Positions 18,686 to 39,332 of a stretch of DNA of 53,965 nt are shown here, piece by piece. Source of the stretch: Synergistaceae bacterium (GTDB lineage: Bacteria; Synergistota; Synergistia; Synergistales; Thermovirgaceae). The position numbers and the translations under genes were made by a program. The stretch spans positions 1 to 53,965 of the forward strand of contig JAAYDT010000084.1 of NCBI GenBank assembly GCA_012729145.1, given 5' to 3'. Each line of letters opens with the position of its first letter. The first letter of the stretch is position 1. The notes beneath the pieces were generated by a model. The model saw nothing but the letters and a program-made list of their open reading frames with translations, did no database searches and was not told where the DNA came from.

Positions 18686-19738
18686 TCACTGGTGGACCGC
18701 CCCGAAGGCATTCCTCGACCGCCTGACGGCCTCGGAGTGCTCTGAGAAGGTCCTGCTGAAAAGGTGTGTACCGTCAGGCATTGCCACGTAGTAGAGGAAG
18801 GGAACATCCTCGGGTTCGATGGAAGCCAGCCATGATCCCTCCGAAGGTGTACAGATAGGGGCAGGAGGCAGGCCGGCATAACGGTAGGTATTGAAAGGGG
18901 AATCGATCTCCAGGTCCCGGTAGAGGACCCTCTTCAGTTCAACTCCCCTCAGAGACCATGCATAGACCACGGTGGCATCTATCTGAAGTTTCATCCCTGC
19001 TTCAGAGCGGTTGCGGATCACTCCGGAGATTATTGGCCTCTCGTGGTCATGCCTTGCCTCCCTTTCCACAAGAGAGGCTACGATAGCCCTTTCAAGGAGC
19101 GCGTCGGCATCGACCCCCGGGCCAAGAACTCTCTCACCTACCCTCTTCATCCAGAGCGCCGAGGCTGCCCTGACCAGTTCGTTGACGGCTCCATCGGAAG
19201 GAGTAACACTGTAGGTCTCGGGGATGAGAAAGGCGATCCTCGAACCTGGCCCTGATGGAAGGAGGGGGCGCAACGTATCCGGGAAGAGGTCATCCCTTGC
19301 AAGGGAGCCCTCGAAAGTCTCACCGAGCCTGGCAAGAAGAACTTCGTAAGTCTCCCCGGGGTAAAGGGTGATCCCCGAGACCTCCGGCTCCGCTACTGCC
19401 ATCTGCCGGGCTATCTCCCAGGGCGACCCCTTGCGAATACGGTAGAGTCCGGGCCGAATCGACCTGTCGATACCTTCTCTTGCGAACCACCTTGAAAGTT
19501 CGTTGGGACGGTCAGTCAACCCTGACGATCCGAAGACCCTGGAGATCTCCCTGGCGTTCATTCCTGGAAGAACGAGAACATCCATAGGATCGCCTCTGCC
19601 CATCTGAATGGTCCCGGCCAGTTTCAGGGGCAGATACTGGGCAAGAGCAATAAAGGAGGCAAAAGTAACAAGAAGTAGAATAAGATGAACTACCCTGCCT
19701 GCCCAGGAAACGGTGGCTGGTCCGGTATCCTTTGTCAT
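18686..19738 (-). CDS. mltG: Endolytic murein transglycosylase MltG
   Basis: A 350-residue membrane-anchored lytic transglycosylase of the MltG/YceG family, which cuts nascent glycan strands and so terminates chain growth. One transmembrane helix (about 15-38) precedes a LysM-like region (about 50-110) and the catalytic domain. Catalytic signatures are IVASLVEREA, with the key Glu near residue 222, and SPFNTYRYAGLPPAPI. The ATG overlaps the fchA stop as TAATG, so the envelope gene is translationally tied to the folate gene before it. Confidence 0.94.
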   Translation of the reverse strand: MTKDTGPATVSWAGRVVHLILLLVTFASFIALAQYLPLKLAGTIQMGRGDPMDVLVLPGMNAREISRVFGSSGLTDRPNELSRWFAREGIDRSIRPGLYRIRKGSPWEIARQMAVAEPEVSGITLYPGETYEVLLARLGETFEGSLARDDLFPDTLRPLLPSGPGSRIAFLIPETYSVTPSDGAVNELVRAASALWMKRVGERVLGPGVDADALLERAIVASLVEREARHDHERPIISGVIRNRSEAGMKLQIDATVVYAWSLRGVELKRVLYRDLEIDSPFNTYRYAGLPPAPICTPSEGSWLASIEPEDVPFLYYVAMPDGTHLFSRTFSEHSEAVRRSRNAFGAVHQ

Positions 19739-20373
19739 TACCGGGGAAGTTCCGAAGATACCGCTGCCAGGACCTTGTCGGCGGCTGTTCCGGTCCTTTC
19801 AAGGTCCGCCTCGAGACGGCGGAGATTCTCTTCGACAAAAGATCCGTCCTCGATGGACGACAGGTTGATCCTGGCGTTCATTGCCGCTCCACGAGAGGCC
19901 GCTTTTATCAGCAAAGCTGACACTCCTGCGTCTGTTATGGCGTTCCGGTTGCCCATGGAGGCGACGGCAAGACAGTTCTCGGCCACATCACCGGCGAGTT
20001 CGACCATCCTCATGGGGACAAGGGTCGATCCTTTGAGGGCCTCCTGCATGGATATCCTCCTGGTCTCTCTCTCCTGCTCTGAGTCTTTGGGGAGGGCCAG
20101 GGCTTTCATGAAACGGTCAAAAGCGTCGCAATCCTTCATGGCAAGATCGAGGAACTCCCGCGATAAGGCCTTGCCCCTTTCTGCGGCCTGGACCATCTCT
20201 TCCTGGACCCCGGAGAAACGGGAGCGTCCAACGGTCAGGTTTGCCACCATTGCCGTCAGGCTGGCAGCGATGGAAGCGCACAGGGCCGAAGCGGAGCCCC
20301 CTCCGGGAGTGGCACTGGATGAACCCAGCTCTTCAATAAGATCCCCTACAGGCAGGGAAGCGATATCTTTCAT
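19738..20373 (-). CDS. fchA: Formiminotetrahydrofolate cyclodeaminase
   Basis: A 211-residue all-helical cyclodeaminase that turns 5-formimino-THF into 5,10-methenyl-THF and ammonia, the last one-carbon step of histidine degradation. The conserved N-terminal SATPGGGSASALCASIAASL, the DCDAFDRFMKALALP segment and GNRNAITDAGVSALL match the C-terminal domain of mammalian FTCD. Here it is a separate protein, as in many anaerobes. Its ATG overlaps the hutI stop (TGATG). Confidence 0.93.
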   Translation of the reverse strand: MKDIASLPVGDLIEELGSSSATPGGGSASALCASIAASLTAMVANLTVGRSRFSGVQEEMVQAAERGKALSREFLDLAMKDCDAFDRFMKALALPKDSEQERETRRISMQEALKGSTLVPMRMVELAGDVAENCLAVASMGNRNAITDAGVSALLIKAASRGAAMNARINLSSIEDGSFVEENLRRLEADLERTGTAADKVLAAVSSELPR

Positions 20374-21620
20374 CAGTTGATCCTCCTATCGTCGGTTCTT
20401 TGTACGACACACTCACCCCTCTTGTAGACGGAGAGGACCGGAGCAACTCCGCAATTATAAGCCAGAATGGCAGGTGTGTCTCCGTCCAGCACAACCAGGT
20501 CAGCAAGCTTGTTCCTTTCGAGGCTTCCACAGGATCCGTCGACCCCGATAGCCTTTGCGGCATTGAGAGTGCATCCGTAAAGGGCTTCGTCAACGGTCAT
20601 GCCCATGTTCATGACAGCGAGGCCGAATACGAAAGGAACCGACTGGGTAAAGGAGGAACCGGGGTTGCAGTCCGTGGCCAGAGCCACAGTAAGTCCCAGG
20701 TCAAGCATCTTCCTTGCGTCGGCATATGGTTTGCGGAGACTGTAGGCCGTGGCGGGAAGCAGGACCGCAATGACCCCCGCCGAGGCCATCTTCGCAAGGT
20801 TCTCCTCTCTTGCCGCAAGGAGGTGCTCTGCCGAGACAGCACCCATCTCCGCTGCCAGTGCCGCACCGCCCGTGTCAGTAACCTCGTCGGCGTGGACCTT
20901 GAGTTTCATTCCGTGCTCTCTGGCAGTATCCAGGATCCTTCTGGTCTGTGGAACGGAGAAGACACTTTCCTCGCAGAAAACATCGCAGAAGGGGGGGGTG
21001 CATTCGGCGGATACGGCGGGGATCATCTCTTTGACCAGAAGATCGACGTACCCTTCGGGATCGTCAGTGAATTCGGAGGGTACCGCATGGGCCCCCATGA
21101 AGGTCGGTACGACCGTGACGGGGGTCTGTCTCCCCACCCTTTCGATCAGCCTTAGCAGGCGTATCTCAGAAGCGGTATCCAGCCCGTAGCCGCTCTTGAT
21201 CTCGACCGTAGTGGTCCCGTGAGAGAGAGATATATGTATGTTCTTCAGGGTTCTCCCAAGGATAGTCTCGTCGCAAGCGCTCCTCACCGACCGGACCGAC
21301 GAAAGGATCCCCCCCCCTGACCTGAGGATCTCCAGGTATGGTACCCCCGAGAGCCGCGTGGCGAACTCTTTCTCTCTCAGCTCTGAAAAGCACATATGGG
21401 TATGAGGGTCTACGAAGCCGGGGACGACACATCTGCCTCCGAGACCGATCTCCTGGTCTATCTGCGACGGGTCCAGGCCCTGGACGACGTCATCTTCTCT
21501 CCCGACCCTTTCTATGAGACCATCCCTGACGAGTAGGGCTCCCCTCTCCCACGATACGCACCCGCCTCCATCGGAGACAGGGGTATGGATCCTGGCGTCC
21601 CTGAAAAGTTTTGTTGTCAT
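20373..21620 (-). CDS. hutI: Imidazolonepropionase
   Basis: A 415-residue amidohydrolase that opens imidazolone-5-propionate to N-formimino-glutamate, the third step of histidine breakdown. Metal and substrate motifs include VVPGFVDPHTHMCF, TTTVEIKSGYGLD, KVHADEVTDTGG and ALATDCNPGSS, in the usual order. The ATG overlaps the ftcD stop as ATGA. The frame contains a run of nine G (complement of C 21309-21317) and one of eight C (complement of G 20991-20998). Both encode conserved residues (SGGG and TPPF), but both are places where slippage or sequencing error could occur. Confidence 0.96.
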   Translation of the reverse strand: MTTKLFRDARIHTPVSDGGGCVSWERGALLVRDGLIERVGREDDVVQGLDPSQIDQEIGLGGRCVVPGFVDPHTHMCFSELREKEFATRLSGVPYLEILRSGGGILSSVRSVRSACDETILGRTLKNIHISLSHGTTTVEIKSGYGLDTASEIRLLRLIERVGRQTPVTVVPTFMGAHAVPSEFTDDPEGYVDLLVKEMIPAVSAECTPPFCDVFCEESVFSVPQTRRILDTAREHGMKLKVHADEVTDTGGAALAAEMGAVSAEHLLAAREENLAKMASAGVIAVLLPATAYSLRKPYADARKMLDLGLTVALATDCNPGSSFTQSVPFVFGLAVMNMGMTVDEALYGCTLNAAKAIGVDGSCGSLERNKLADLVVLDGDTPAILAYNCGVAPVLSVYKRGECVVQRTDDRRIN

Positions 21621-22528
21621 GACTGTTCACCTGACATATCGAGGAGCTTGAGCTCGATGATCTGTTCAGGTTCGAGGCCGGCCGCCTGCAGGTAATGAGC
21701 AGCGCTCTGGAATATCGCCGAGGCCGGGACCATCCCGTAGATCTCGGTCTCGACCACGGGGACACCCCACCTCGAGGCTTCCATCCTTACCAGTTCGAGG
21801 ACCCTGTACAGGGGGTTCTTCTCGTGATCCACTATGTTTACACTTACCTGGACCATCCCCTTCTCCTCGAGGGCAAGGCCGATGGCCTTGACGTGAGCAA
21901 GACCTCCCCCGGAGAACCTTATGGACCTTGCGATCTCTTTTGCGATTTCAATACGGCAGGTGCCCAGATTGACGTTGAAGGCAACCAGGAATTTTCTAGC
22001 CCCAACGACAGTCGCCCCTGCCGTAGGGTGCATTTTGGCCTCTCCGACATCGGGATGTCTTTCGGGATCACCGATCGCCTTCTTCAACCCCTCAAACTGG
22101 CCTTTCCGAATGTTCTCAAGGTTCTTCCTGTCCGGCCTTGTGGCTGCCTCCTCGTAATAATAGACTGGCACCTTGAACTGTTCGTTAAGGCGTCTTCCGA
22201 ATTCCCGGGCTATCTGGACGCACTCCTCCATGGACAAACCTTTCAGCGGCGTAAAGGGTACAACATCAAGGGCGCCTATCCTTGGGTGGGCACCGGAATG
22301 AACGTTCATGTCGATAAGCGAGAAGGCCGCTTCCGCCGACCTTATCAGGGAATCCATTATCGCCTCGGGGTCGCCGGCCAGGCTTACCACCAGCCTGTTA
22401 TGGTTCTCGTCGGACCTGTGATCGAGCAGTTGACAACCTTTTCTGTCGCGAAGAGGTGCCACGATACTCTCTATTACATCCTTTCTTCTTCCCTCGCTGA
22501 AATTTGGGACACACTCAACGATCCTCAT
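21617..22528 (-). CDS. ftcD: Glutamate formimidoyltransferase
   Basis: A 303-residue formiminotransferase, moving the formimino group from N-formimino-glutamate to THF and releasing glutamate. The N-terminal IVECVPNFSEGRR, HSGAHPRIGALDVVPF with its catalytic His, the segment GARKFLVAFNVNLG and MVQVSVNIVDHEKNPL are typical. I start at ATG 22528, 6-7 bases after GGAGG; an in-frame ATG at 22534 abuts that site. Unlike the mammalian fused enzyme, the cyclodeaminase is a separate gene two positions downstream. Confidence 0.95.
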   Translation of the reverse strand: MRIVECVPNFSEGRRKDVIESIVAPLRDRKGCQLLDHRSDENHNRLVVSLAGDPEAIMDSLIRSAEAAFSLIDMNVHSGAHPRIGALDVVPFTPLKGLSMEECVQIAREFGRRLNEQFKVPVYYYEEAATRPDRKNLENIRKGQFEGLKKAIGDPERHPDVGEAKMHPTAGATVVGARKFLVAFNVNLGTCRIEIAKEIARSIRFSGGGLAHVKAIGLALEEKGMVQVSVNIVDHEKNPLYRVLELVRMEASRWGVPVVETEIYGMVPASAIFQSAAHYLQAAGLEPEQIIELKLLDMSGEQS

Positions 22529-22567
22529 GATCATCCTCCGTCCCAGGGATCCTTCACTGGACCCCGG

Positions 22568-24574
22568 CTATTCTTCTATCAGTGACAGAAGGAACCTGTC
22601 ATCGGCAAGGAAGGGAAGGGTGACATGATCACCGGAGGATGCGTTGTGTCCGATAATGGTCTCAATGGAGTTGGGATTCCTTGCCCAGGAACGACGGGCG
22701 ACCCCTCCGATAACGTCCCAGGAGAGGGATCGTCTGATCACCTCATCCACCCTTTCGCTGCCATCAAGGACAAGCCCGAACCCTCCATTTACGGCTTTCC
22801 CGATCCCGACACCGCCACCATTGTGAAGAGCGACGAGGCTCATCCCTCTAGCCGCGTTTCCGGCAAAACACTGGATGGCCATGTCGGCCATGACGTTACT
22901 GCCATCCTTGATGTTGGCCGTCTCCCTGAAAGGCGAATCTGTGCCGCCAGTGTCGTGGTGATCCCTACCGAGCATTACTGGCCCGATCTCGCCATGGCGG
23001 ACCATTTCGTTGAACCTGAGGGCTATCCTTACCCGTCCTTCAGCATCCTGGTAAAGTATCCTTGCCTGGGTTCCTACCACCAGGCGGTTCCTCCCGGCAT
23101 CCCGGACCCAGAGGTAGTTATCCCGATCCTGGGGTCTCCTCTCGGGATCTATGCACTCCATGGCCGCCTGGTCTGTCTTTTCGAGGTCTTCCGGCCTTCC
23201 GCTCAGGCAGACCCACCTGAAGGGGCCATAGCCGAAATCGAAAAGTTCGGGTCCCATGATATCCTCAACGTAGGAGGGGAAGATAAATCCCTCCCTGGTA
23301 TCCTTGCCGTTCTTGGCAATATCCAGCCTTCCGGCGTCAAAGACGGCTTTCATGAAGGAGTTTCCGTAGTCAAAGAAGTAGGTCCCCCTTTCATGAATGG
23401 TGCGGATAAGGTCGAAATGCCTGCTAAGGCTTTCGTCTACCATCTGGCGGAATATCTTTCTGTCCTTCCTGAGCATCTTCGTCCTCTCGTCGAAGGATAG
23501 CTGGAAGGGACAGTAACCACCGTCATAAGGAGCGTGGCACGAGGTCTGGTCCGAAAGAAGGTCGATCTTGACGTTTCTGTCCACAGCATATTGCAGAAGC
23601 TCAACTATGTTCCCGTGATAGGCGATGGAGATTCCCTTCCGGGATGACAGGTTCTCTCCCGCGATCCGGAAGACCTCATCAAGATCGCTTGAGACCACCG
23701 AGACCCAGCCCTGCTTGTGCCGGGTCTCGATCCTGGAGATGTCCACTTCTGCAATTATCCCCACGCACCCGGCGATCTCAGCCGATTTCGGTTGGGCTCC
23801 ACTCATCCCGCCGAGGCCGGAAGAGACAAAAAGTACTCCCTCAAGCCCCTTGCCTGTGGAGAGACCAAGTTTCCTGCCGGCGTTGAGGATAGTGTTGAAG
23901 GTCCCGTGGACTATCCCCTGGGGGCCTATGTACATCCAGCCACCGGCGGTCATCTGGCCGTAATTGGCAACCCCCATCTGGGCCGCGATCTCCCAATCGT
24001 CCTGGTTGTCGAACATTCCTACCATCATGGAGTTTGTGATAATGACCCTTGGGGCATCGGGTCCCGACCGGAAGAGCCCAAGAGGGTGCCCCGATTCGAC
24101 AACGAGGGTCATATCCTCTGTCAGTTCCTCGAGGTACTTCCTGATCAGGCGGTACTGCATCCAGTTCTGGCAGACACTTCCCGTCTCTCCATAAGTGACC
24201 AGCTCGTATGGGTAAAGAGCCACGTCCGGATCGAGGTTGTTGTCGATCATCACCTGGAAGGCCTTTCCCTCCAGACATTTGCCTTTGTAGCTGTCAATGG
24301 GCAGACCCTTGGGGGGGGTTGATGGACGGTACCGGTAACCGTAAATTCTCCCCCGGCTCCTGAGTTCATCAAGGAATTCCGGTGCAAGGACCTGGTGCAG
24401 CTTCTCGGGAATGTACCTGAGGGCATTCTTAAGAGACGTAAGGGTCTGTCTTTTGTCCAGCCGGTAACCCCTGTCGGGTGCCCGTCTGATCTGTGGATCG
24501 AAGGGAGGCGGAGACGGGAGCTCATCTCCGAGGGATATTCTCATAGCTGCTTCAATTCTTCTGTTGTCAGGCAT
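22568..24574 (-). CDS. hutU: Urocanate hydratase, long form
   Basis: A 668-residue urocanase, adding water to urocanate to give imidazolone propionate, with tightly bound NAD. Core motifs include NYGQMTAGGWMYIGPQGIVH, SSGLGGMSGAQPKS, SDQTSCHAPYDGGYCPFQLS, the GLGGMSGAQ dinucleotide loop and ALHNGGGVGIG. At 668 residues it belongs to the long urocanases (about 660-680, as in vertebrates and various anaerobes) rather than the 550-residue Pseudomonas/Bacillus type. Extra segments lie at the N-terminus and in the middle. It begins 36 bases after hutH. A run of eight C (complement of G 24311-24318) occurs early in the frame. Confidence 0.96.
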   Translation of the reverse strand: MPDNRRIEAAMRISLGDELPSPPPFDPQIRRAPDRGYRLDKRQTLTSLKNALRYIPEKLHQVLAPEFLDELRSRGRIYGYRYRPSTPPKGLPIDSYKGKCLEGKAFQVMIDNNLDPDVALYPYELVTYGETGSVCQNWMQYRLIRKYLEELTEDMTLVVESGHPLGLFRSGPDAPRVIITNSMMVGMFDNQDDWEIAAQMGVANYGQMTAGGWMYIGPQGIVHGTFNTILNAGRKLGLSTGKGLEGVLFVSSGLGGMSGAQPKSAEIAGCVGIIAEVDISRIETRHKQGWVSVVSSDLDEVFRIAGENLSSRKGISIAYHGNIVELLQYAVDRNVKIDLLSDQTSCHAPYDGGYCPFQLSFDERTKMLRKDRKIFRQMVDESLSRHFDLIRTIHERGTYFFDYGNSFMKAVFDAGRLDIAKNGKDTREGFIFPSYVEDIMGPELFDFGYGPFRWVCLSGRPEDLEKTDQAAMECIDPERRPQDRDNYLWVRDAGRNRLVVGTQARILYQDAEGRVRIALRFNEMVRHGEIGPVMLGRDHHDTGGTDSPFRETANIKDGSNVMADMAIQCFAGNAARGMSLVALHNGGGVGIGKAVNGGFGLVLDGSERVDEVIRRSLSWDVIGGVARRSWARNPNSIETIIGHNASSGDHVTLPFLADDRFLLSLIEE

Positions 24575-24610: not shown

Positions 24611-26143
24611 TCATTCCAGTTCCCCCGTTGCCTCTTCCACGGCCTTGAGGTAGCTTCGGTCCTCCACCCCTTTGATTATCCTGTCTATCATGGGGTGAAG
24701 GAAAACATCCTTTTCTAGGTAGGGGATCTCCTCCCTGAGCTTTCTGTAGGCAGCCCCTGTACCTGCTCCAGGTTCAAGAGGGCTGGAAAAATCCAGCCCC
24801 TGGGCAGCAAGAAGAAGTTCGATGGCGAGGATCTTCTTGACATTGTCCAGGATCTCCTTTCCTTTCCTGGCTGAGTACATCCCCATGGAAACGTGGTCCT
24901 CCTGGTTTGCCGATGTGGGGATAGAATCCACGGAGGATGGGTGGGCAAGTACCTTGTTCTCCGAGACAAGGGCGGCCGCAACATACTGGGGGATCATAAA
25001 GCCGCTGTTGATACCGCTGTTCTCGACCAGGAAGGGGGGAAGGCCAGAAAGCTTTCCGTCCACCAGCCTGGCAGTCCTTCTCTCTGAAATGTTGCCTATC
25101 TCGGCCATTGCCATTCCGAAAAAGTCCATAGCAAGGGCTACGGGCTGACCGTGGAAGTTCCCGCCGCTGATGGCCTCACCCTCGGCGGGGAAGATAAGCG
25201 GGTTGTCTGTGACGGAGTTTATCTCGATCTGGATCACGTTCTTGACGTACTGGATACCGTCTCGGCTTGCTCCGTGGACCTGGGGGATACAGCGGAGCGA
25301 ATAGGCATCCTGGACCCTTTCGTTACCGAATTTTTCAAGGATCCGGCTGCCACTGACAAGACCCCGGATGTTCTTGGCCACCTTTATCTGACCCTGGTGG
25401 GGCCTGAGTTCGTGAGTCCTGTGGTCGAAAGCGAAGGGAACACCGTGAAGGGCTTCCAGCGACATGGCTCCCACGATGTCGGCCGTCTTCAGCACGGCCA
25501 TCGCTTCCCATACGGCCATGACGGCTACGCCGGTCATCGCCGCCGTTCCGTTGTTCAGGGCCAGACCTTCCTTGGGGCCCAGGGCTATGGGTTCAAGTCC
25601 CGCGGACCTGAGGGCCTCTGAAGCCTTCATCCTCTTTCCCTGGAAAAAGACCTCTCCAAGGCCAAGAAGCGAAATGGCAAGATGGGAGAGGGGGCAAAGG
25701 TCTCCGCTGGCGCCCACGGACCCCTTGCAGGGGATCACTGGGTGTAACCCGATGTTAAGGAAGTCAACAAGACGGGAAAGGGTCTCCATGCTAATGCCTG
25801 AGAAACCTCTTATCAGTGAGTTGATCCTTAATAGCATTATCGCCCTGACGATCTCTTCCGGGAAGGGCTCCCCTACCCCGCAGGCGTGGCTTGTAAGGAG
25901 GTTTTCCTGGAGTTTCTCGCTCTTGTCAGGGGGTATGACCTGGCTTGCAAGGTCTCCGAATCCAGTGGTGATGCCGTAGATTATCCTTCCATCCTCCACC
26001 CAGGAACGGACCATCCTTGAACCTCTCTCCACAAAGGCGACAGCAGACCTGTCAAGGGCTATCTTCCTCCCTTCACGGGCAACATCGACTACATCTTCAA
26101 GCCTTAGCGAGTGACCGTTCAGTTCGAGTACCGAAGATCCCAT
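24611..26143 (-). CDS. hutH: Histidine ammonia-lyase
   Basis: A 510-residue histidase, eliminating ammonia from histidine to give urocanate. The Ala145-Ser146-Gly147 triad inside GSVGASGDLCPLSH forms the MIO electrophile. Other marks are YGITTGFGDLA, LLRINSLIRGFSG, QDAYSLRCIPQVHG and ITDNPL-type VTDNPLIFP. The start is ATG 26143 (MGSSVLELNGHS), preceded by a G-rich stretch. The 58-base gap to the radical SAM gene holds a promoter-like element and a short dyad, the likely start of a hut transcript. Confidence 0.96.
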   Translation of the reverse strand: MGSSVLELNGHSLRLEDVVDVAREGRKIALDRSAVAFVERGSRMVRSWVEDGRIIYGITTGFGDLASQVIPPDKSEKLQENLLTSHACGVGEPFPEEIVRAIMLLRINSLIRGFSGISMETLSRLVDFLNIGLHPVIPCKGSVGASGDLCPLSHLAISLLGLGEVFFQGKRMKASEALRSAGLEPIALGPKEGLALNNGTAAMTGVAVMAVWEAMAVLKTADIVGAMSLEALHGVPFAFDHRTHELRPHQGQIKVAKNIRGLVSGSRILEKFGNERVQDAYSLRCIPQVHGASRDGIQYVKNVIQIEINSVTDNPLIFPAEGEAISGGNFHGQPVALAMDFFGMAMAEIGNISERRTARLVDGKLSGLPPFLVENSGINSGFMIPQYVAAALVSENKVLAHPSSVDSIPTSANQEDHVSMGMYSARKGKEILDNVKKILAIELLLAAQGLDFSSPLEPGAGTGAAYRKLREEIPYLEKDVFLHPMIDRIIKGVEDRSYLKAVEEATGELE

Positions 26144-26188: not shown

Positions 26189-26215
26189 ATTATATGGAAA
26201 ATCACGACATGACAA
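26189..26215 (-). promoter_or_regulatory. Putative internal promoter for hutH-hutU-ftcD-hutI-fchA
   Basis: On the - strand: -35 TTGTCA (26210-26215), then a consensus -10 TATAAT (26189-26194). The 15-base spacer is short. The -35 lies at the end of the radical SAM frame (stop at 26202-26204). Confidence 0.5.
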
Positions 26216-27188
26216 TACCCCGAGGGGTTCTGCAGCGTGGACACGTCCCATCCTCCAAGAGGTGCACACTGGCCCTGTAGAGGTCATCCCTTTCCACCAG
26301 GACCTCACCGCAGACCGGGCAGAGAGTGTTATTCCTGCTCTGTAGATTTCCGGAATAGACATTTTCAAGAAATTCCGAAGCGATCTCCTCCCTGACCCTG
26401 ATAGAGGGTATCGGAGTGGGGGGAAGGGCCCAGCGGTAATCGGGGAAATACCTGGAGATATGAAGAGGGATACTCTCCGAAATACCAGCGATCCATCGGA
26501 CCAGATGCCGGAATTCCTCGATGGAATCATTGATCCCGGGCACGACCAGGTGGGTGATCTCTACATGTACCGATCTCTCGAAGGCGATCCGGACCGTGTC
26601 TAGAACAGGAGCAAGAGTGCCTCCGAGCATGGAGTAGGTGCTGTCGGAAAAGCCTTTAAGGTCAATATTCATTGCATCTACAAGATGGATAAGGTCCTCC
26701 AGGGGCTTTCGGGATATGTAGCCGTTGGTCACCAGAACGACCCCCTTCTTTTCTCTTTTCAGCAGGAGCGATGTATCCCTGACGAATTCGTACCAGACGG
26801 TGGGCTCATTGTATGTGAAGGCCACAGAGGGAGCGTCGTGATGCTGCAAGAGTCTAAGTACATCGGAGGGGTTCGTCCAGGAGAGGCCCTTATGGTTTTT
26901 TGAACGTGACAGATGGTGGTTCTGGCAGTAGGGACAGAAAAGATTGCACCCAAAAGTCCCCAGGGAGAGGATCCGCGTGCCGGGTCTCCAGTGGTAGAGA
27001 GGTTTTTTCTCGACAGGGTCCACGGCGACACACGCCCAACCATAGTTCAGGGAGACAAGCCTTCCGCCGGAGTTCTCCCTGACCCCGCAAGCTCCCGTGA
27101 GCCCCTGGCTTATGATACACTCCCTGGGGCAGAGATGGCAGTTGATATCATCTCCCCTTGCGATCCAGTAAAGTGCCGTCCTGTCCAT
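26202..27188 (-). CDS. Radical SAM enzyme of the AmmeMemoRadiSam set (AmrS-like)
   Basis: A 328-residue radical SAM protein related to pyruvate formate-lyase activating enzymes. The cluster motif C-X3-C-X2-C is at Cys81, Cys85 and Cys88 (GTFGCNLFCPYCQNHHLS). An N-terminal Cys group (Cys17, 20, 24 and 34) precedes it, and two Cys pairs (CPVC, CPRC) at the C-terminus look like a zinc ribbon. SVAFTYNEPT and VTNGYIS are typical of the family. It follows genes for an AMMECR1-domain and a LigB-fold protein, the combination known as the AmmeMemoRadiSam system. Its substrate is not established; a base or cofactor modification has been proposed from comparative genomics. Confidence 0.9.
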   Translation of the reverse strand: MDRTALYWIARGDDINCHLCPRECIISQGLTGACGVRENSGGRLVSLNYGWACVAVDPVEKKPLYHWRPGTRILSLGTFGCNLFCPYCQNHHLSRSKNHKGLSWTNPSDVLRLLQHHDAPSVAFTYNEPTVWYEFVRDTSLLLKREKKGVVLVTNGYISRKPLEDLIHLVDAMNIDLKGFSDSTYSMLGGTLAPVLDTVRIAFERSVHVEITHLVVPGINDSIEEFRHLVRWIAGISESIPLHISRYFPDYRWALPPTPIPSIRVREEIASEFLENVYSGNLQSRNNTLCPVCGEVLVERDDLYRASVHLLEDGTCPRCRTPRGIVMS

Positions 27189-27212
27189 TGATCAACAACC
27201 CTTCTCCTGTCT

Positions 27213-27773
27213 TTACTCGGAGAATCGACGGACTGTGAAGCGAAATATCCTTACGCCATCGGACGATCCGATCCCGGCCTTCCTCATGGCGATCGACAGC
27301 TGCTGTTCAACAGTGTCCACCCCATCAAGATCAGGGAGAAGGACCCCTTTTCTCCCCTCCTTCTCAACGATCACCCCGAAAAGTAAGGGGTCCAGTTCAG
27401 AAAGGTCCCCGACAGGACAGGGCTCGTCAAGTACATCCACTGAAACCCGGCACTCCTCCGCCTCGTCCGGTCCAAGGGGAAAGAACCTGGGGTCCTCCGA
27501 CGCCGCGGCGGCTGCATTGGCAACGATCTCTTCCCAGAGACTCTTTCGGACCGGTCTTATCGTGCCTATGCACCCTCTCAGTTCTCCCGTTGAAGCCATC
27601 CTGATCGAGACGAAACACCCCCGCTCTATTAACATCTCCGTCGTTGCATTGTATTCACGGGGATCAAGATGCCTGAAAGGGTCCTGCCCGAGAGCGGTGA
27701 GCCTGACAGCTCTCCTTGCAAGGTCCAGATAGGGGTGTGCCTCGCCTTTCACCGATCTCGCGAGCCCGTCCAT
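27213..27773 (-). CDS. AMMECR1-domain protein (AmmeMemoRadiSam protein A)
   Basis: A 186-residue protein consisting of a single AMMECR1 domain. The hallmark LRGCIGT is at residues 65-71, with Cys68 the invariant cysteine. FVSIRMASTGELRGC before it and the DPRFFPLGPDE segment after it are also conserved, as is SVDVLDEP. The biochemical role is unknown; the domain is found in all kingdoms. The ATG at 27773 overlaps the stop of the LigB-like gene (TAATG). In many clostridia the two are one fused protein, so here the same pair is encoded by two coupled genes. The radical SAM gene begins 24 bases downstream. Confidence 0.9.
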   Translation of the reverse strand: MDGLARSVKGEAHPYLDLARRAVRLTALGQDPFRHLDPREYNATTEMLIERGCFVSIRMASTGELRGCIGTIRPVRKSLWEEIVANAAAAASEDPRFFPLGPDEAEECRVSVDVLDEPCPVGDLSELDPLLFGVIVEKEGRKGVLLPDLDGVDTVEQQLSIAMRKAGIGSSDGVRIFRFTVRRFSE

Positions 27774-28567
27774 TATTCTCCCTCCCCGGACAGGTCCAGA
27801 AGAGCCGTGGCATAACCTACCCCGAAGGGAGACTCGTAGGAAAGGACCTCGATCGGGCTGCTCATTGAAAGTCCGATGAGCGCAAGTACTGATCGGAGTC
27901 CGCACTCACCGGCATTTCTAATGACCTGGCCGGGGAGATCGAGGACCGGGTCCGGAGAGGATCTCTTCAAAGATTCAACAATAGCTTCGTCGAGGACCCT
28001 GCCGTCGGGGTGGAAACCTGATGGAGCATCCCTGGTCAAACGGTGCGAGAGATCGCCGCTTGCCAGAAGTCCCCACTTTTTCCCCGAAACGAACTCCCTG
28101 AGGTGTCTGCCTAGTTCGTATGCCTGACAGTGATCTATTGTTACCGGATTGGCCAGGATCATTGAGGGGGTCTTCCAAAGGGCTGGACCAAGCAGGTGAA
28201 GGGATACGACAGCGGCATAATCCAGGTCGATCTCGGAGGGTCTGCAGGCTGAAGAAGGGATAAAAGAGGATATGTATTCAATTAGCCTTTCTCCCTCCTC
28301 CGCCGCTCCCTTGAGCGAGATCGATACCGAAGGGGCCCCGAAATTACCCAGGTCTCCCACGAACCTCCCGGGGTTTATCAAGGTAAAGGTCCTGTCTGAA
28401 ACAGCGTGAGGATCCAGGACAAGAAGATGGTCGGGGGCAAGTTCCTTCAGTCTTCCGCCGAGGGATCGAAGCCCCTCCAGGGTCTTTCCGGTCCCTGATC
28501 CGGATCTTGCTGCTACCTCAGGGACCAGTATTGGGGCATGAGGAAGCAAAAAACCCATCGTCCACAT
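27773..28567 (-). CDS. LigB/Memo-fold protein of the AmmeMemoRadiSam set
   Basis: A 264-residue protein of the class III extradiol dioxygenase (LigB) fold. Likely metal-ligand histidines are His10 in LLPHAPILVPEVA and His54 in LVLDPHAVSDR. YAAVVSLHLLGPALW and LLASGDLSHRLT are further histidine-bearing segments of this branch. Members associate with AMMECR1 and radical SAM genes and are related to Memo. The reaction is not known. Start: ATG 28567 behind GGAGGG (8 bases). It heads a twelve-gene run, with a promoter at 28610-28638 and a divergent helix-turn-helix gene beyond. Confidence 0.85.
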   Translation of the reverse strand: MWTMGFLLPHAPILVPEVAARSGSGTGKTLEGLRSLGGRLKELAPDHLLVLDPHAVSDRTFTLINPGRFVGDLGNFGAPSVSISLKGAAEEGERLIEYISSFIPSSACRPSEIDLDYAAVVSLHLLGPALWKTPSMILANPVTIDHCQAYELGRHLREFVSGKKWGLLASGDLSHRLTRDAPSGFHPDGRVLDEAIVESLKRSSPDPVLDLPGQVIRNAGECGLRSVLALIGLSMSSPIEVLSYESPFGVGYATALLDLSGEGE

Positions 28568-28609
28568 GACAATCCCTCCCCGAGATTCTGTAAAAGTCCC
28601 TTTTCATGT

Positions 28610-28638
28610 ATTATGACAGTCAGAGAATGTTTTTCCAA
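28610..28638 (-). promoter_or_regulatory. Promoter of the LigB-AMMECR1-radical SAM-hut run
   Basis: On the - strand: -35 TTGGAA (28633-28638), 17-base spacer, TGT-CATAAT, an extended -10 (28610-28615). The opposite strand reads TATTAT at almost the same place, so a divergent + promoter for the next gene could overlap. Confidence 0.6.
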
Positions 28639-28715: not shown

Positions 28716-29159
28716 GTGCAAAAGAATGACCGACCGGAGGATGGGACCTCCTCCATACTGGAAATGCTCTCCGAGATCGAGAGGATGGTCGATGGTGAAC
28801 TGTTTTTGCCGACCCTGCAGGAGGACTGGGATCGGGATCCCCCGAAGGAAGTCTCCTGGGCCGTCGCCAATGTGCTCTCCCTTCCACTATCACAGGCGGC
28901 GAGGATCCTCCTGATATCTTCCCTTCTGGGGAGTAACGGCCGCGATCTGACATGTCGCTTTAACGAGCTTGCCTTGCTCTCTGGACTCTCAGAGAGAACA
29001 GCATACCGGGCGCTGAAGGAAATAAAGCAGTCAGGGCTGTTTAAGATCCAGGCTACTCCGGGTAGTGGCGTGAGGATATCGGCAGAGTGGATCTGGGATG
29101 AACCTCGTGACAGGGCCAGGGAATTCTTCCAGGAAAGGATGCCTGGAAAGGCTCCCTGA
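28716..29159 (+). CDS. Putative winged helix-turn-helix protein
   Basis: I do not recognise this 147-residue protein as a named family. The N-terminal third is acidic and helical. Residues about 78-130 look like a winged helix: RFNELALLSGLSERTAYRAL reads as the helix-turn-helix, followed by KEIKQSGLFKI and a beta wing (GSGVRISAEW). No signal peptide or membrane helix is seen. The start is GTG 28716, 5 bases after GGAGG. It is divergent from the LigB-AMMECR1-radical SAM-hut run, so a role as its regulator is an inference from position and fold. It could also be a replication-initiator-like or structural DNA-binding protein. Confidence 0.6.
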   Translation: MQKNDRPEDGTSSILEMLSEIERMVDGELFLPTLQEDWDRDPPKEVSWAVANVLSLPLSQAARILLISSLLGSNGRDLTCRFNELALLSGLSERTAYRALKEIKQSGLFKIQATPGSGVRISAEWIWDEPRDRAREFFQERMPGKAP

Positions 29160-29164: not shown

Positions 29165-29183
29165 ATGTTCACTGAATGAACAT
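29165..29183. repeat. Hairpin at convergent ends of the helix-turn-helix gene and queA
   Basis: Perfect 7-bp inverted repeat ATGTTCA-ctgaa-TGAACAT that includes the queA stop codon, flanked by GGATGCC/GGCATCC arms further out. There is no T-run, so it may be a weak bidirectional terminator or an mRNA end stabiliser. Confidence 0.5.
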
Positions 29184-30203
29184 GGCATCCCCAAAGGAGA
29201 AGAAACGGTATCCCGTTTCGATGGCCTCCCTGTAGGCTTTCATCGTCAGTTCGTTCCCGGCAAAGGCGCAGACCAGCATGAGAAGGGTGCTACGGGGAAG
29301 ATGGAAGTTGGTGATCATGGCATCGATGGTCCGGAAATGATACCCGGGGTAGAAGAAGGCCTCTGTCGAGAACGAACCTGGGTAAACGGTGCCATCTTCT
29401 GCAGCCCTGCTCTCCAGTGCCCTTACCACGGTGGTTCCCACAGCGACCACCCTTCCTCCGGACGCTTTGGTCTCTCTCACGGCCACGGCCGTCGCTTCAG
29501 GGATGGTGCACTCTTCGGGGTGCATACTGTGCATCCGGATATCATCTTCCTTCACAGGCCTGAAGGTCCCCAGACCGACGTTCAGGGTTATCCGTGACGT
29601 TCTGATACCCGCTGCCTCAATCTCCCGAAGCAGCCCGGGTGTAAAGTGAAGGCCCGCCGTTGGGGCAGCCACGGAGCCCCTGTTCACTCCGTAGACCGTC
29701 TGGTATCTCTCGGGATCTATGGATCGGTTATGTACATAGGGGGGGAAGGGGATCTCCCCGGTCTCCTCCATCAGCCTCCAGACATCGGTCCCCTCTGGGA
29801 AGAAGCAGCTCCTGGACCCCTGGCTGGTCCTCTCCCCGATCACTACCTCGATCCCTCCATCCAGGACAAGAAGCTGGCCGGGTCTGACCCGTCTGCCCGG
29901 CCGCACCAGTACCTCCCAGAGGACGCATCTCTTCCCGCCAAGGGGCCTCAGCAGAAAAACCTCGATGCTGGCCCCTTCTCCAGCCTTGACACCCCGGAGG
30001 CGGGCCCTGACCACTCGGGTGTCGTTGATCACCAGGAGGTCCTTTTCTCGCAGAAGTGACATGATCTCATTGAAAACCCTGTGGCGGATCGTCCCCGAGA
30101 AGCGGTCCATGACCAGCAGCTTCGATGAGTCCCTGGGTTCGACCGGTTCCTGGGCGATCCTCGACTCCGGCAGATAGTAATCGTAGCTGTTAATATCGAA
30201 CAT
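29169..30203 (-). CDS. queA: S-adenosylmethionine:tRNA ribosyltransferase-isomerase
   Basis: A 344-residue QueA, which moves the ribosyl group of SAM to preQ1 in tRNA to form epoxyqueuosine. The N-terminal DYYLPESRIAQEPVEPRDSS, LLVINDTRVVRARL, PPYV, the GSVAAPTAGLHFT loop and ITNFHLPRSTLLMLV are characteristic. The start is ATG 30203 (MFDINSYD). The frame is open up to 30266, but that part has no family similarity. It is the last gene of the nadE-yebC-ruvCAB-spoIID-queA run; ruv-queA linkage is common. No other queuosine genes were seen. Confidence 0.95.
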   Translation of the reverse strand: MFDINSYDYYLPESRIAQEPVEPRDSSKLLVMDRFSGTIRHRVFNEIMSLLREKDLLVINDTRVVRARLRGVKAGEGASIEVFLLRPLGGKRCVLWEVLVRPGRRVRPGQLLVLDGGIEVVIGERTSQGSRSCFFPEGTDVWRLMEETGEIPFPPYVHNRSIDPERYQTVYGVNRGSVAAPTAGLHFTPGLLREIEAAGIRTSRITLNVGLGTFRPVKEDDIRMHSMHPEECTIPEATAVAVRETKASGGRVVAVGTTVVRALESRAAEDGTVYPGSFSTEAFFYPGYHFRTIDAMITNFHLPRSTLLMLVCAFAGNELTMKAYREAIETGYRFFSFGDAMFIQ

Positions 30204-30267
30204 CGATCCCGATCCTTCCAGAGCGCCTTCGCTCCCTGGGAGATACGTTCTGAAAGGTCCTTCCATG

Positions 30268-31653
30268 TCAGTTGGAGATCCTGGATATCTCCGTACCCGG
30301 GAAGTAGTGTTCCAGTATCCTTATGTGATCCCATCCGGCTTCGGCAAGACTTTTGGCGCCCCATTGCGAAAGCCCCACTCCGTGACCCCAGCCCCGGCCT
30401 GAAAAAGTGACAGTATCGCCCGTGACGGGGGCGTCAAAGGAGGGAGGCGTCTGAAGAGAACCTGCTCCGCTCTGTCTCTCAAGAGCTTTTCTCAGGTAAA
30501 ACCCCCTCTTTTCGGGCTTAACGAGCATGTCCATCAGTTCCTCGGTCTTGAAAACACCCTGCTGGGTGAAGGCTATGAGCATCTGTTCGTCTTTTGGGGT
30601 GAGAGGGAAGACCTTATCCTCTCCGGAACCCGGAGAGGTGGTGTCATTGGGGATAAATGGAGCAGCAGCAACTGGACCTCCCCCCATGGTGAAGAAGGTG
30701 CTCCTTATCCTGTCGGGGCCAACAATGGTCCTGAACTGGCTTGCCCTTATCGTGGTCCTGCCCGCTGTTCCCGTCAGGGTAACGTCCACGGCCCTGCCTC
30801 CGCTGTCAGTTGATGAGACAGAGATACCCGTGAGCCTTCCGACGTAGATCCCCTTCGAGGAAAGGACCCTCTGTATCTCCGAAAGCCTCAACGTCGTCTG
30901 CCAGCTTGAGTAGGGGGATTGATATTTCAGGGGTTCGGGGCTCCCTTTCAGATAGGGTACGCTAGACCCCCAGACGGAGGAGACTTCGGCAGTGTGTCCT
31001 CCGCTGTCGGCGTGATAGAAGGTGGCGGCGAGACCACCCTGGAATTTCAGGACCTGTCCCCTGGTCTGATCGACTGCTTTCGTAAGGACCTGGTCCTCAG
31101 CGTTAACTCCCCTGTAAACCTGGCAGTGACTGAGGGCGCAGAGGTCGAAACCGCTGCTTCCGTGTCTGCCCCGGTTCCTGAGTGCGTAGGTCCTTGCGAT
31201 GATAGCCTGGGCTTTCAGGGATTCCATGGGCCAGGCGGGGTTCACCTCCATCTTCAGGACACCCTTGAGATAGTCCTCGATGCCCACCACGTTGACAACG
31301 TTAAAACCTGATCCCTGCTGGACCAGCCTGTAATGACCGCGGTAGGGCCTGTTGTTCCACCTTAAAATTACGTTGCTCCTTACCGTAACGGGAAGCTTGA
31401 GGTTCACGGAACCAGCCTTGATGACCCCCGGGGAAATGGCGACCACGTTGACGGTGGACCTGAAGGAGGCCTTTCCGCCGGAGAAACTGGCCAGGTTTAT
31501 CTGGCTGTTCGGGGCTGAAAAGACGGCTCTGTCGTCACCGGTAGAGAGGCCGATCGAAAGCGCGGAATTGGCCTCTCCGGGAAGAGATGTAACTTGAAGT
31601 AACACTGCAGCGAATACCAACGAGATTAATGTCCTTTGAAAAAATAATTTCAT
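30268..31653 (-). CDS. SpoIID/LytB-domain secreted protein with an insertion
   Basis: A 461-residue exported protein with a signal peptide (about 1-28, hydrophobic LISLVFAAVLLQ) and a SpoIID domain. Domain marks are VGIEDYLKGVLKMEVNPAWP (catalytic Glu), LKAQAIIARTYAL, CQVYRGV, DSGGHTAEVSSVWG, and GRGWGHGVGLSQWGA near the end. SpoIID is a glycan-cutting transglycosylase that acts on amidase-stripped peptidoglycan; such proteins also occur in non-sporulating bacteria. About 85 residues (about 322-408), Pro/Ser-rich then charged, separate the IRSTFF strand from the final GWGHGVG block, which normally follows within some 20 residues. The start could also be a GTG two codons upstream. Confidence 0.88.
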   Translation of the reverse strand: MKLFFQRTLISLVFAAVLLQVTSLPGEANSALSIGLSTGDDRAVFSAPNSQINLASFSGGKASFRSTVNVVAISPGVIKAGSVNLKLPVTVRSNVILRWNNRPYRGHYRLVQQGSGFNVVNVVGIEDYLKGVLKMEVNPAWPMESLKAQAIIARTYALRNRGRHGSSGFDLCALSHCQVYRGVNAEDQVLTKAVDQTRGQVLKFQGGLAATFYHADSGGHTAEVSSVWGSSVPYLKGSPEPLKYQSPYSSWQTTLRLSEIQRVLSSKGIYVGRLTGISVSSTDSGGRAVDVTLTGTAGRTTIRASQFRTIVGPDRIRSTFFTMGGGPVAAAPFIPNDTTSPGSGEDKVFPLTPKDEQMLIAFTQQGVFKTEELMDMLVKPEKRGFYLRKALERQSGAGSLQTPPSFDAPVTGDTVTFSGRGWGHGVGLSQWGAKSLAEAGWDHIRILEHYFPGTEISRISN

Positions 31654-31686
31654 GATCACACACCCGTTCTCCAAGGATCTTTCGTA

Positions 31687-36308: not shown

Positions 36309-36716
36309 TTGGACAAGCTGGCGAGGTTCAGTGTATCTTTACCGGCACCCCTGCTGGACAGGTTCGATTCCTGGATCGAGGCCCGTGGCTACCGGACCAG
36401 GTCCGATGCATTGAGACAGCTGATCCGGCGCTTTATCTCCGAGTCATACTGGGAGGACGGTGAGAAGATCGTTTTCGGGACCGTTACCCTCACCTACGAC
36501 CACCATTCCCACGATTCCGCCAGCGAGATAACCAACCTTCAGCACGAATTCGGGGACCTGATAATCTGTTCCACCCATATTCACGCCGATTACCACCACT
36601 GTTTCGAGAGCGTCGTCTTCAAGGGCAAGGCTTCAAGGGTCAAGGAGTTCGTCAGGCAGTTGAGCGGGCTAAAGGATGTATCAAGTTCAGACCCGGTCAT
36701 CTCCTCCATTCCCTGA
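36309..36716 (+). CDS. nikR: Nickel-responsive regulator NikR
   Basis: A 135-residue NikR. A ribbon-helix-helix DNA-binding domain (about 4-45, RFSVSLPAPLLDRFDSWIEA and RSDALRQLIRRF) is followed by an ACT-like nickel-binding domain. The square-planar ligands are all present: His79 (LQHEFGD), His90 and His92 (THIHADYHH) and Cys98. NikR represses nickel uptake genes when nickel is plentiful. The start is TTG 36309, 7 bases after GGGAGG. No nickel transporter, hydrogenase or urease gene is in the window. The only neighbours are a divergent CN-hydrolase and a small convergent zinc-ribbon gene. Confidence 0.93.
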   Translation: MDKLARFSVSLPAPLLDRFDSWIEARGYRTRSDALRQLIRRFISESYWEDGEKIVFGTVTLTYDHHSHDSASEITNLQHEFGDLIICSTHIHADYHHCFESVVFKGKASRVKEFVRQLSGLKDVSSSDPVISSIP

Positions 36717-36741
36717 AAGGGGGAGCGATCCTCGACTGGCG

Positions 36742-36786
36742 GGGCTGATGTCGGTGACGACCGTCACCGGTCAGAGGCCTCAGCCC
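36742..36786. terminator. Two-tier hairpin between nikR and the zinc-ribbon gene
   Basis: Outer arms GGGCTGA (36742-36748) and TCAGCCC (36780-36786) enclose an inner perfect stem CGGTGAC-gacc-GTCACCG (36752-36769). It spans the convergent gene ends, with the zinc-ribbon stop inside the outer arm. It has no T-run. Probably a bidirectional terminator or an mRNA 3' end structure. Confidence 0.5.
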
Positions 36787-36941
36787 GAAGGGGCACACTT
36801 CCCCTTCTTCTTCCTTGCCGTTCCCCTTACAAGTATCAGCGTCCGCCCGCGACACTCGGGACACCGCGGTTCCTGCTCCTCTTCGGACAGGTCGAACAAT
36901 TTACCGCATGAGGCGCATTTGTAGCTCGTCTTTCCCGCCAT
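36780..36941 (-). CDS. Small zinc-ribbon protein (53 residues)
   Basis: A 53-residue open frame with good gene features: ATG 36941, a GAGG site just upstream, and a zinc-ribbon fold with two Cys pairs, YKCASCGKLF (about residues 8-14) and RCPECRGRTL (about 27-36). A basic RKKKGK tail follows, ending in KCAPSG with a fifth Cys. Small ribbons of this type are common in anaerobes, but I cannot name the family or a function. It converges on nikR and lies downstream of argF, past a terminator-like hairpin. It could bind zinc, nickel or nucleic acid. Confidence 0.7.
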   Translation of the reverse strand: MAGKTSYKCASCGKLFDLSEEEQEPRCPECRGRTLILVRGTARKKKGKCAPSG

Positions 36942-36960
36942 TTACCTCACTTCCTTCAGA

Positions 36961-36996
36961 AAATTCGGACCCTGCCCGGGGGGCGGGGCCTGAATT
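36961..36996 (-). terminator. Putative terminator after argF
   Basis: On the - strand GAATTC and a GC-rich arm (GGCCCCGCCC) pair imperfectly with GGGCAGGGTCC and GAATTT, followed by TTTTCTG. The stem has one bulge and two G-T pairs. It lies between argF and the small zinc-ribbon gene. Confidence 0.5.
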
Positions 36997-37005
36997 CATG
37001 GTCAA

Positions 37006-37953
37006 TTAAAGGTTGCCGGCCGTTGATACCATGACAGCCTTGATGGTGTGGAGCCTGTTCTCCGATTCATCGAACACCTTGGAGTTCCTGGATTCAAAGA
37101 CCTCCTCGGTTACTTCGTTGCCCTTCACTGCCGGGAGACAGTGCAGGAATATGCAATCGGGATTTCCCGTGGCCTTCATCAGCTCCCTGTTGACCTGGTA
37201 GGGTTTGAGGAGGGTTCTCCTCTCAGCGAGTTTGTCCTCTTCTCCCATCGATGCCCAGACATCGGTATAGATGGCATCCGCGCCGCTGACCGCTTTTTGA
37301 GGTTCCTCGAAGAACTCGATGGTGGATCCTGTTCCGACCGCAACGGCCCGACATTCCTCCACCAGAGCCTTTTCAGGGAAGAGATCGGCAGGGGCGGCTA
37401 TCCTGAAGTGAATCCCCGTCTTCGCGGAACCGATCATAAGCGAGTTGGCCATGTTGTTCCTTCCATCACCGACATAGACCAGCCTTAGCCCCCTGAGCTT
37501 GCCGAAGTTCTCCTGAAGCGTCAGGAAATCGGCCAGGATCTGGGTCGGGTGATACATATCAGTGAGGCCGTTCCATACCGGCACACCGGAGTAAAGCGCA
37601 AGCTCCTCCACTACGGTCTGTTTGAAACCGCGGAACTGGATCCCGTCGAACATCCTTCCCAGGACCCTTGCGGTGTCCTTGACGGATTCCTTGTGTCCCA
37701 GCTGGATGTCGTTCTTGCCGAGATACTCGGGATGGCCTCCCTCGTCTATGCAGGCCACAGTGAATGCACAGCGTGTCCTGGTGGAGGGTTTTTCGAAGAT
37801 AAGGGCTATGTTTTTGCCGGCCAGGGCGCTCCCCCTGGTCCCGGCCCGCTTCTTACCCTTGAGAGAGGCAGAAAGGTCGAGCAGGTACTGGATCTCTTCG
37901 GTGGTGAAATCCTTCAGGGTCAGAAAACTTCTTCCTTTGAGATTAATGGGCAT
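37006..37953 (-). CDS. argF: Ornithine carbamoyltransferase
   Basis: A 315-residue ornithine carbamoyltransferase. The carbamoyl-phosphate motif STRTR is at residues 57-61 ([11 protein letters not shown]). [19 protein letters not shown] and HCLPA (271-275), which binds ornithine, follow. The enzyme joins carbamoyl phosphate and ornithine to citrulline or runs in reverse. Lying 56 bases downstream of arginine deiminase, it probably acts catabolically (ArcB role), splitting citrulline to ornithine and carbamoyl phosphate, but the sequence does not exclude a biosynthetic role. AGGAGGAG lies 7 bases before the ATG. No carbamate kinase follows. Confidence 0.94.
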
Positions 37954-38009
37954 TCTCTACTCCTCCTGTTGATAGTGATCTGGTATGTTTTACCGGGTAC
38001 CAGTTGACT

Positions 38010-39242
38010 TCAATCCCGCATCATGGGCATGCTCATGCACCGGGGGCCGCCCCGGCCTCTCCCAAGCTCCGCCCCCTTGATCTCGAAGACCTTGATCCCG
38101 TTCTCCTGTAGGACCCTGTTGGAAACAACATTCCTCCTGTAAGTTACCACTACTCCTGGAGCGATAGCCAGGGTGTTCGTTCCGTCGTTCCACTGATCCC
38201 TGGCGGCTGCGACCGGGTCACCTCCTCCTGTCTCGATGAGGCGGACCGTATCTAGTCCAAGGACTTTCCGAAGACACTCCCCCAGGTTCTGATGCTCTAT
38301 AACGGAGGTTATCTCCCCTTCAGAAGAGTACTCGAGCTGCCATATCCGGATGAAGTCCTTCACTTCCGGGTAGATAGTGAAGGCGTCATGGTCCACCATG
38401 GTGAAGACCGTGTCAAGATGCATCGCCGCACGGGTCTTGGGAATATCGACGGCCAGTAAGGTCTTGACGCCAGCCCTTTCCGCTATCCTCTTGCCGACTA
38501 TCTGGATGGTCCCCGCTGCGGTCCTCTGGCTGATGCCGACGGCCGCCACTGAATCGGAGAGTATCAGGATGTCCCCGCCCTCTATGTTGTAGGGATAGGT
38601 ATCCCGGGGGTGATCCCCGAAGAGGAACTCGATGCCCTTGAAATAGGGGTGGTTCTTGAAGATGTAACGGGCGTAGAGAGGCTCCTTCCGGCGGGCCTCA
38701 AAGGTCATGACGCTCAATATTACACCGTTCTTTATGAAGGTGAAGGGATCTCTCTGGAAATACAGGTTGGGAAGGGGGCGTATGAGGAAATCGCGGTCCC
38801 CCATTGCCCTCAGTACCAGGCTCCTGCAGGGCGGAAGGATCTCCATGGCTTCCATTTTGGTAAGCCCGGCGATCAGCATCTCAGCCAGGTCGCTGGGGCT
38901 AATCTCCATCATCACCGCCTTCAGGGCGGAGACAAGAGGTATATCGATCGCCTCAAGGGCGAGGACCTCGTCAAGTAGTGGATCCCTTACGCTTTCTTCC
39001 CTGAGAACATGGGAGAGACAATTCCTGAAGTAGACCACTTCCACACCGTTGTCCCTGAGAAGGTCCGCGAAGGCGTCGTGCTCCTTCTGGGCTTCTTCCA
39101 CCCAGAGGATATCGTCGAAGAGGAGTTCATCCTTGTTGTCTATGGTGAGACGTTCCAGTTCCTTTCCGGGCCTGTGAAGCATGACCCTTTTCAGTTTACC
39201 GACTTCCGACGATATGCTGAAAGATCTGTCCTCGTTGGCCAC
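38010..39242 (-). CDS. arcA: Arginine deiminase
   Basis: A 410-residue arginine deiminase that converts arginine to citrulline and ammonia. The catalytic Cys402 is in GGPRCMSMPM at the C-terminus. YFQRDPFTFI, NIEGGDILILS, the His-bearing AAMHLDTVFTMVD and GGGDPVAAARDQWNDGTN are the family's substrate-binding blocks. The start is GTG 39242 with AGGGGGT 7 bases upstream. It is followed by ornithine carbamoyltransferase and preceded by the polyamine operon, which consumes the same amino acid. A -10-like TATACT (39283-39288) lies upstream with no clear -35. Confidence 0.95.
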   Translation of the reverse strand: MANEDRSFSISSEVGKLKRVMLHRPGKELERLTIDNKDELLFDDILWVEEAQKEHDAFADLLRDNGVEVVYFRNCLSHVLREESVRDPLLDEVLALEAIDIPLVSALKAVMMEISPSDLAEMLIAGLTKMEAMEILPPCRSLVLRAMGDRDFLIRPLPNLYFQRDPFTFIKNGVILSVMTFEARRKEPLYARYIFKNHPYFKGIEFLFGDHPRDTYPYNIEGGDILILSDSVAAVGISQRTAAGTIQIVGKRIAERAGVKTLLAVDIPKTRAAMHLDTVFTMVDHDAFTIYPEVKDFIRIWQLEYSSEGEITSVIEHQNLGECLRKVLGLDTVRLIETGGGDPVAAARDQWNDGTNTLAIAPGVVVTYRRNVVSNRVLQENGIKVFEIKGAELGRGRGGPRCMSMPMMRD

Positions 39243-39332
39243 CAGAATTACCCCCTGTTTCGGATTATTTGCCCCAATGAGAAGTATAATCCATCGGCGG
39301 CAAAAAGCTAAAAGGCGGCCTGATCCCTTACC

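Follow-up and report, generated by a model that had tools for sequence, protein, structure and literature searches.

The window, the whole stretch of 53,965 nucleotides analysed here, is an entire contig of a 1.78 Mb draft genome from the phylum Synergistota. The genes for a LigB-type protein, AMMECR1 and a radical SAM enzyme (rSAM), referred to below as the trio, lie directly in front of the histidine-degradation genes hutH, hutU, ftcD, hutI and fchA (Table 1). LigB and AMMECR1 are unfused, the TAA stop codon of the former and the ATG start codon of the latter (27773) sharing one base in a TAATG overlap; rSAM follows after 24 bases and hutH (ATG at 26143) after another 58. The first-pass annotation of this DNA had described the same arrangement, exact to the base. 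It had not listed fchA, which we add at the end of the hut run; the protein at the orthologous position in locus L037 reaches 208 bits with the FchA model NF045657, under the cut-off of that model (275). The folate neighbours named in that annotation correspond to ftcD and fchA, and the envelope neighbours to mltG and spoIID. The genes mltG, tldD and ftsK are located 3' of fchA, and queA, spoIID, ruvB, ruvA, ruvC, yebC and nadE 5' of the trio, named from their sequences and, for queA and spoIID, also by profile. Upstream of this block, nikR-like, argF/arcA-type and arginase-family genes form an arginine-related run (36309-40555); argF and nikR recur next to the nadE-queA block in many families. 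HutU comprises 668 residues, the first 98 of which lie beyond the urocanate hydratase model as an N-terminal extension of about 98 residues.

Table 1. Coordinates of the genes and predicted regulatory elements at the trio-hut locus of the window.
Feature	Position	Strand	Evidence
LigB-type component B, 264 aa; putative metal-site residues H10, H54 and E221/C222, with H175	27773..28567	-	PF02900 76 bits (cut-off 26)
AMMECR1, component A, 186 aa, LRGCIG motif	27213..27773	-	PF01871 131 bits; TIGR04335 115 bits (cut-off 99)
AmmeMemoRadiSam radical SAM enzyme (rSAM), 328 aa	26202..27188	-	TIGR04337 273 bits (cut-off 220)
hutH, histidine ammonia-lyase	24611..26143	-	TIGR01225 674 bits (cut-off 539)
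hutU, urocanate hydratase	22568..24574	-	TIGR01228 439 bits (cut-off 375), match from residue 99
ftcD, glutamate formimidoyltransferase	21617..22534	-	TIGR02024 406 bits (cut-off 221)
hutI, imidazolonepropionase	20373..21620	-	TIGR01224 431 bits (cut-off 298)
fchA, formimino/methenyl-THF cyclohydrolase-type	19738..20373	-	PF04961 193 bits, E 5e-57
Sigma-70-type promoter, TTGGAA-17-CATAAT, TG before -10	28610..28638	-	promoter scan; -10 conserved in relatives, -35 not
TGTCATAATACATGA box over the extended -10 of the LigB promoter, predicted operator	28604..28618	-	conserved in relatives
Divergent winged-helix regulator gene	28716..29159	+	HTH_11 25.2 bits (cut-off 25); 25-27 bits in window and relatives
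queA, last gene of the nadE-yebC-ruvCAB-spoIID-queA block	29169..30266	-	profile match
spoIID, SpoIID-family gene within the ruvB-queA block	30268-31674		profile match

Judged by profile matches and gene adjacency, the trio is an AmmeMemoRadiSam system with a LigB-type component B. The rSAM and AMMECR1 proteins score above the cut-offs of TIGR04337 and TIGR04335, respectively, and all three genes are adjacent, as in most relatives. The rSAM protein carries a CNxxCxxCQN motif and an N-terminal four-Cys motif, the cysteines of which are invariant in the rSAM alignment, and the closest solved sequence is the pyruvate formate-lyase (PFL)-activating enzyme (3c8f). The relatives of the AMMECR1 protein in the PDB are 1zq7 and 1vaj. 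Component B of the window did not match the MEMO type (PF01875 or the NCBIfam component B model); Pfam gives PF02900 LigB only, and the sole NCBIfam match, HpaD_Fe, falls below threshold. Because it lacks a match to the MEMO models, we filed it as a LigB-type variant and not as the canonical MEMO form. For the histidine pathway, HutH, HutU, HutI and FtcD all exceed the curated NCBIfam cut-offs. AMMECR1 has been listed among the top-priority uncharacterised proteins for experiment (PMC6393860), and the primary molecular function of MEMO1 is unknown (PMC11081632).

We searched 151 Synergistota genomes for the rSAM family, AMMECR1 and hutH, and inspected the gene surroundings of 61 loci with the trio and of 40 hutH loci not linked to it (family labels are f1, f2 and so on, genus labels g1 and so on; L denotes loci and G genomes). 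By coordinates, rSAM adjoins hutH in 31 of the 151 sampled genomes, distributed over two orders, so the hut link does recur among relatives, which the first-pass annotation had left to a comparison of neighbourhoods. The order nadE-yebC-ruvC-ruvA-ruvB-(spoIID)-queA-LigB-AMMECR1-rSAM-hutH was found in the distant family f11, which belongs to another order, in f1, f4, f6, f8, f9 and f10, and in two genera of f2. Gaps at the linked loci are mostly below 90 bases. In several f3 genera, the block proceeds directly from rSAM to mltG without hut genes (gaps of about 0-25 bases), and the trio stands alone in other genera of the phylum. In most of the families that keep the block, queA is located directly 5' of the trio, often within 30 bases. 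The description of the trio as the head of a hut run therefore holds for the window's own family, where the regulator gene separates queA from the trio, but not for most other linked families, where the trio closely follows queA. The unfused state of LigB and AMMECR1, which had been singled out as notable, is not distinctive; the two are fused in many Synergistota genera and split in others, and both forms occur within one f4 genus. Most of the phylum has spoIID between ruvB and queA, but f11 lacks it at this place. Downstream of hutH, we found hutU, ftcD, hutI and fchA in members of the window's genus. Other groups (L032-L034, L042, L043, L052, L054-L056 and L061) have an ABC transporter of the branched-chain (liv) type there, accompanied in f11 by an EamA-type transporter. 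The transporter behind the trio-linked hutH is a candidate histidine uptake system.

The divergent regulator-like gene and the extended -10 promoter proposed in the first-pass annotation are both present upstream of LigB. The winged-helix gene, just above the HTH_11 cut-off, is conserved in the window's family (the window and L043-L047) and was not seen in the other families examined. The promoter scan taken alone is near chance (6 sites against 4.3 expected), and it is the -10 element that relatives conserve. The window and four aligned relatives share the TGTCATAATACATGA box without a mismatch, although they have diverged on either side of it and in the -35 region. The box is also exact in six of the ten genomes of the window's family, and the reversed control pattern occurs in none. 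The box is probably an operator for the local winged-helix regulator. Since each genome contains one such site, G074 alone having a second one with a single mismatch, we dropped a wider regulon as a clue to function. No convincing terminator was found between rSAM and hutH in the window.

In a tree of 67 HutH proteins, the topology follows the family assignments, and the label "linked to the trio" needs five changes compared with a mean of 21 after shuffling. The linked forms occur in f11 and across other early-branching groups. On a simple reading, the tree fits one ancestral linkage of hut and trio followed by several break-ups. A deep clade (100/100 support) that is never linked to the trio contains the hutH of L180, L185, L186, L189, L190, L191 and L209, and some genomes carry such a copy in addition to a linked hutH. 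Among the 151 genomes, 79 possess both AMMECR1 and hutH, 22 only AMMECR1, 14 only hutH and 36 neither, which corresponds to an odds ratio of 9.2, a value confounded by relatedness; some of the 14 hutH-only genomes are contig-edge cases. Nine genomes, each at least 93% complete, carry hutH without the trio, and several near-complete ones carry the trio without hutH. In 12 f2 genomes, hutH still lies 2.3-14.1 kb from queA while the trio is elsewhere or absent, and this is the strongest evidence that trio and hut genes are independent passengers. As a control for synteny, we compared 400 kb of the distant genome G005, where eight of eight adjacent pairs among the window's gap-pgk-tpi and obg-rpmA genes with orthologues there were kept, albeit in a small sample. 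Genomes this far apart thus generally retain gene order at the operon scale, and the persistence of the rSAM-hutH pair is nothing unusual.

Outside Synergistota, we examined 80 rSAM loci from many bacterial and archaeal phyla, with flanks of 10 kb as far as the contigs reach. Neither hut genes nor queA were found within 10 kb of rSAM at any of these 80 loci. Of 50 genomes behind such loci, 18 encode a HutH above cut-off somewhere. Among 200 genomes of a Bacillota-type phylum (that of Anaerosolibacter), rSAM exceeds the cut-off in 147, of which 44 also carry hutH above its cut-off, and none of these 44 has the two genes adjacent. The neighbours of rSAM elsewhere (L092-L167) are scattered, with NusG_II (6), glycosyltransferase family 9 (5), AIRS (5) and ApbE (4) followed by the rarer BacA (3), polyprenyl synthase (2), RtcB (2) and archease (2). 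They possibly have a faint isoprenoid/envelope and RNA flavour.

The metal site of component B was compared among 57 Synergistota LigB proteins (numbering of the window). H10, H54, D172, H175 and C222 are invariant, and residue 221 is Glu in 52 proteins, Gln in three and His in two. The replacements, AGQCG or AGHCG before the invariant Cys, are seen at L049, L050, L058, L059 and L060. A profile of 17 LigB domains matched extradiol dioxygenases in the PDB, with Glu221 aligned with the iron-ligand Glu of the aminophenol dioxygenase 3vsg, and the same profile gave no detectable match to MEMO1 by sequence. The iron ligands of MEMO1 are H49, H81 and C244, the last of which takes the position of the dioxygenase Glu (PMC11081632). 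The corresponding His-His-Cys set is invariant in the LigB proteins (H10, H54 and C222), yet the adjacent Glu221 fits the ligand position too, and the His-His-Glu residues of the dioxygenase type are also present in the window protein. An AlphaFold2 model of a fused clostridial LigB-AMMECR1 protein (L110; pLDDT 90, pTM 0.76) matched dioxygenases best in Foldseek (target TM-scores of about 0.7-0.85) and MEMO1 next (about 0.55); AMMECR1 structures were matched as well. The MEMO-like fold (7kq8 and 3bcz, E about 1e-10) was thus recognised in the model of this fused relative.

The neighbourhood of the trio might be read as a sign of a role in the metabolism of histidine or formimino-folates, with HutH, HutU or an intermediate as possible targets of modification. 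The position of hutH directly behind rSAM across two orders, the folate steps of ftcD and fchA within the same run and the positive co-occurrence of trio and hutH would all agree with such a role. We nevertheless rejected this functional link and regard it as very improbable, because it is absent from the 80 loci of other phyla and from all 44 Bacillota-type genomes with both genes, hut genes remain near queA once the trio is gone, and some near-complete genomes have only the one or only the other. Moreover, the MIO cofactor of HutH forms autocatalytically. A role in tRNA modification together with the upstream QueA is also improbable, if marginally less so. The close spacing behind queA in most block-keeping families and the RtcB and archease genes that neighbour rSAM at a few loci outside Synergistota speak for it, but queA is nearly universal in the phylum (138 of 151 genomes), including genomes without the trio, and is not linked to rSAM at any of the 80 loci from other phyla, on which grounds we discarded a functional queA link.

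Alternatively, trio and hut genes could be co-expressed on purpose, the trio being needed during amino acid fermentation. The missing terminator, the short gaps, and the conserved box and divergent regulator of the window's family are consistent with this idea, and some selection for co-expression could explain why so many families have kept hutH immediately after the trio. The regulator and the box are, however, limited to one family, and elsewhere the trio follows queA, stands alone or directly precedes mltG without hut genes; we consider a regulatory link of this kind rather unlikely. For LigB itself, the PF02900 match, the extradiol dioxygenases as best structural matches and the alignment of E221 with their iron ligand would suit a true aromatic-ring dioxygenase, with the trio degrading an aromatic compound. 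Against this, the described members of Synergistota are strict anaerobes (e.g., PMC3035294), the Glu is replaced in five of the 57 proteins and Cys222 in none, and nearly every locus examined has LigB together with AMMECR1 and rSAM. Such an activity appears extremely unlikely.

The hut link is real, old within Synergistota and most likely positional, and in the window's family the two sets of genes may share their expression. The combination of AmmeMemoRadiSam membership with this positional reading is, in our estimation, likely to be correct. Inherited position is favoured by the lack of a hut link at the loci sampled from other phyla, the repeated separation of trio and hut genes, the persistence of hut near queA after loss of the trio, and the occurrence of each without the other. 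The first-pass annotation had left a choice between a clue to function and mere co-transcription; the link does repeat within Synergistota, and the evidence favours inherited position over a functional clue. An ancestor of the phylum would have had the trio placed between the yebC-ruvCAB-queA housekeeping block and a histidine-degradation cluster. In the window's family, we infer the insertion of the winged-helix regulator, in divergent orientation, behind queA. The trio and the downstream hut genes would thereby have gained a promoter of their own, with a conserved operator-like box over the -10, and would then be read together. The substrate of the trio is probably not an intermediate of histidine breakdown. 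As gene-neighbour clues are valuable for AMMECR1 and MEMO1, recognising a striking phylum-wide neighbour as probably positional saves effort on histidine.

The most likely role of the trio is a radical-initiated modification of some general cellular substrate, in which AMMECR1 and LigB would be partner proteins. As to the reaction itself, fold and motif permit a tentative sketch, which may well prove wrong. The rSAM enzyme, related to the activases of glycyl radical enzymes, would make a 5'-deoxyadenosyl radical, which could attack this substrate while AMMECR1 and LigB hold it. The LigB iron site (His10, His54 and the pair Glu221-Cys222) would then complete the reaction without O2. The invariance of Cys222 beside a replaceable Glu221 suggests that the LigB site may act like MEMO1 and not as an oxygenase. 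It is conceivable, although on balance doubtful, that, in the AmmeMemoRadiSam systems of anaerobes, the LigB-type component B is a MEMO-like, non-oxygenase iron protein, with the invariant Cys as the working ligand beside the old dioxygenase Glu in a GECG motif. If this were true, it would stand between extradiol dioxygenases and MEMO1 as a living intermediate, and its natural fusion to AMMECR1 would make it a tractable model for the roles of human MEMO1 and AMMECR1. The invariant Cys and the replaceable Glu are a concrete pair of residues to mutate.

Compared with known systems, the window shares with the Memo-AMMECR1-radical SAM form of AmmeMemoRadiSam (TIGR04335/TIGR04337) the adjacent AMMECR1 and rSAM genes above curated cut-offs, but differs in its LigB (PF02900) component B, its three separate genes and the hut genes behind them. 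The clostridial-type loci, in which a fused LigB-AMMECR1 accompanies the radical SAM enzyme (11 fused cases in the wider sample), have the same LigB type and gene order, whereas they are not beside hut or queA and the genes of the window are split. Like the hutHUGI histidine-degradation clusters, the locus has a complete set of hutH, hutU, ftcD, hutI and fchA, but an unrelated trio stands at its head. The LigB-type protein resembles MEMO1 (7kq8, 3bcz) in its fold and in the similar positions of two His and one Cys, yet it goes undetected by sequence profile and keeps a Glu beside the Cys. With the class III extradiol dioxygenases (LigAB and 2-aminophenol 1,6-dioxygenase), it has in common the fold and the His-His-Glu positions, from which the invariant extra Cys, the other genomic context and the anaerobic phylum set it apart.
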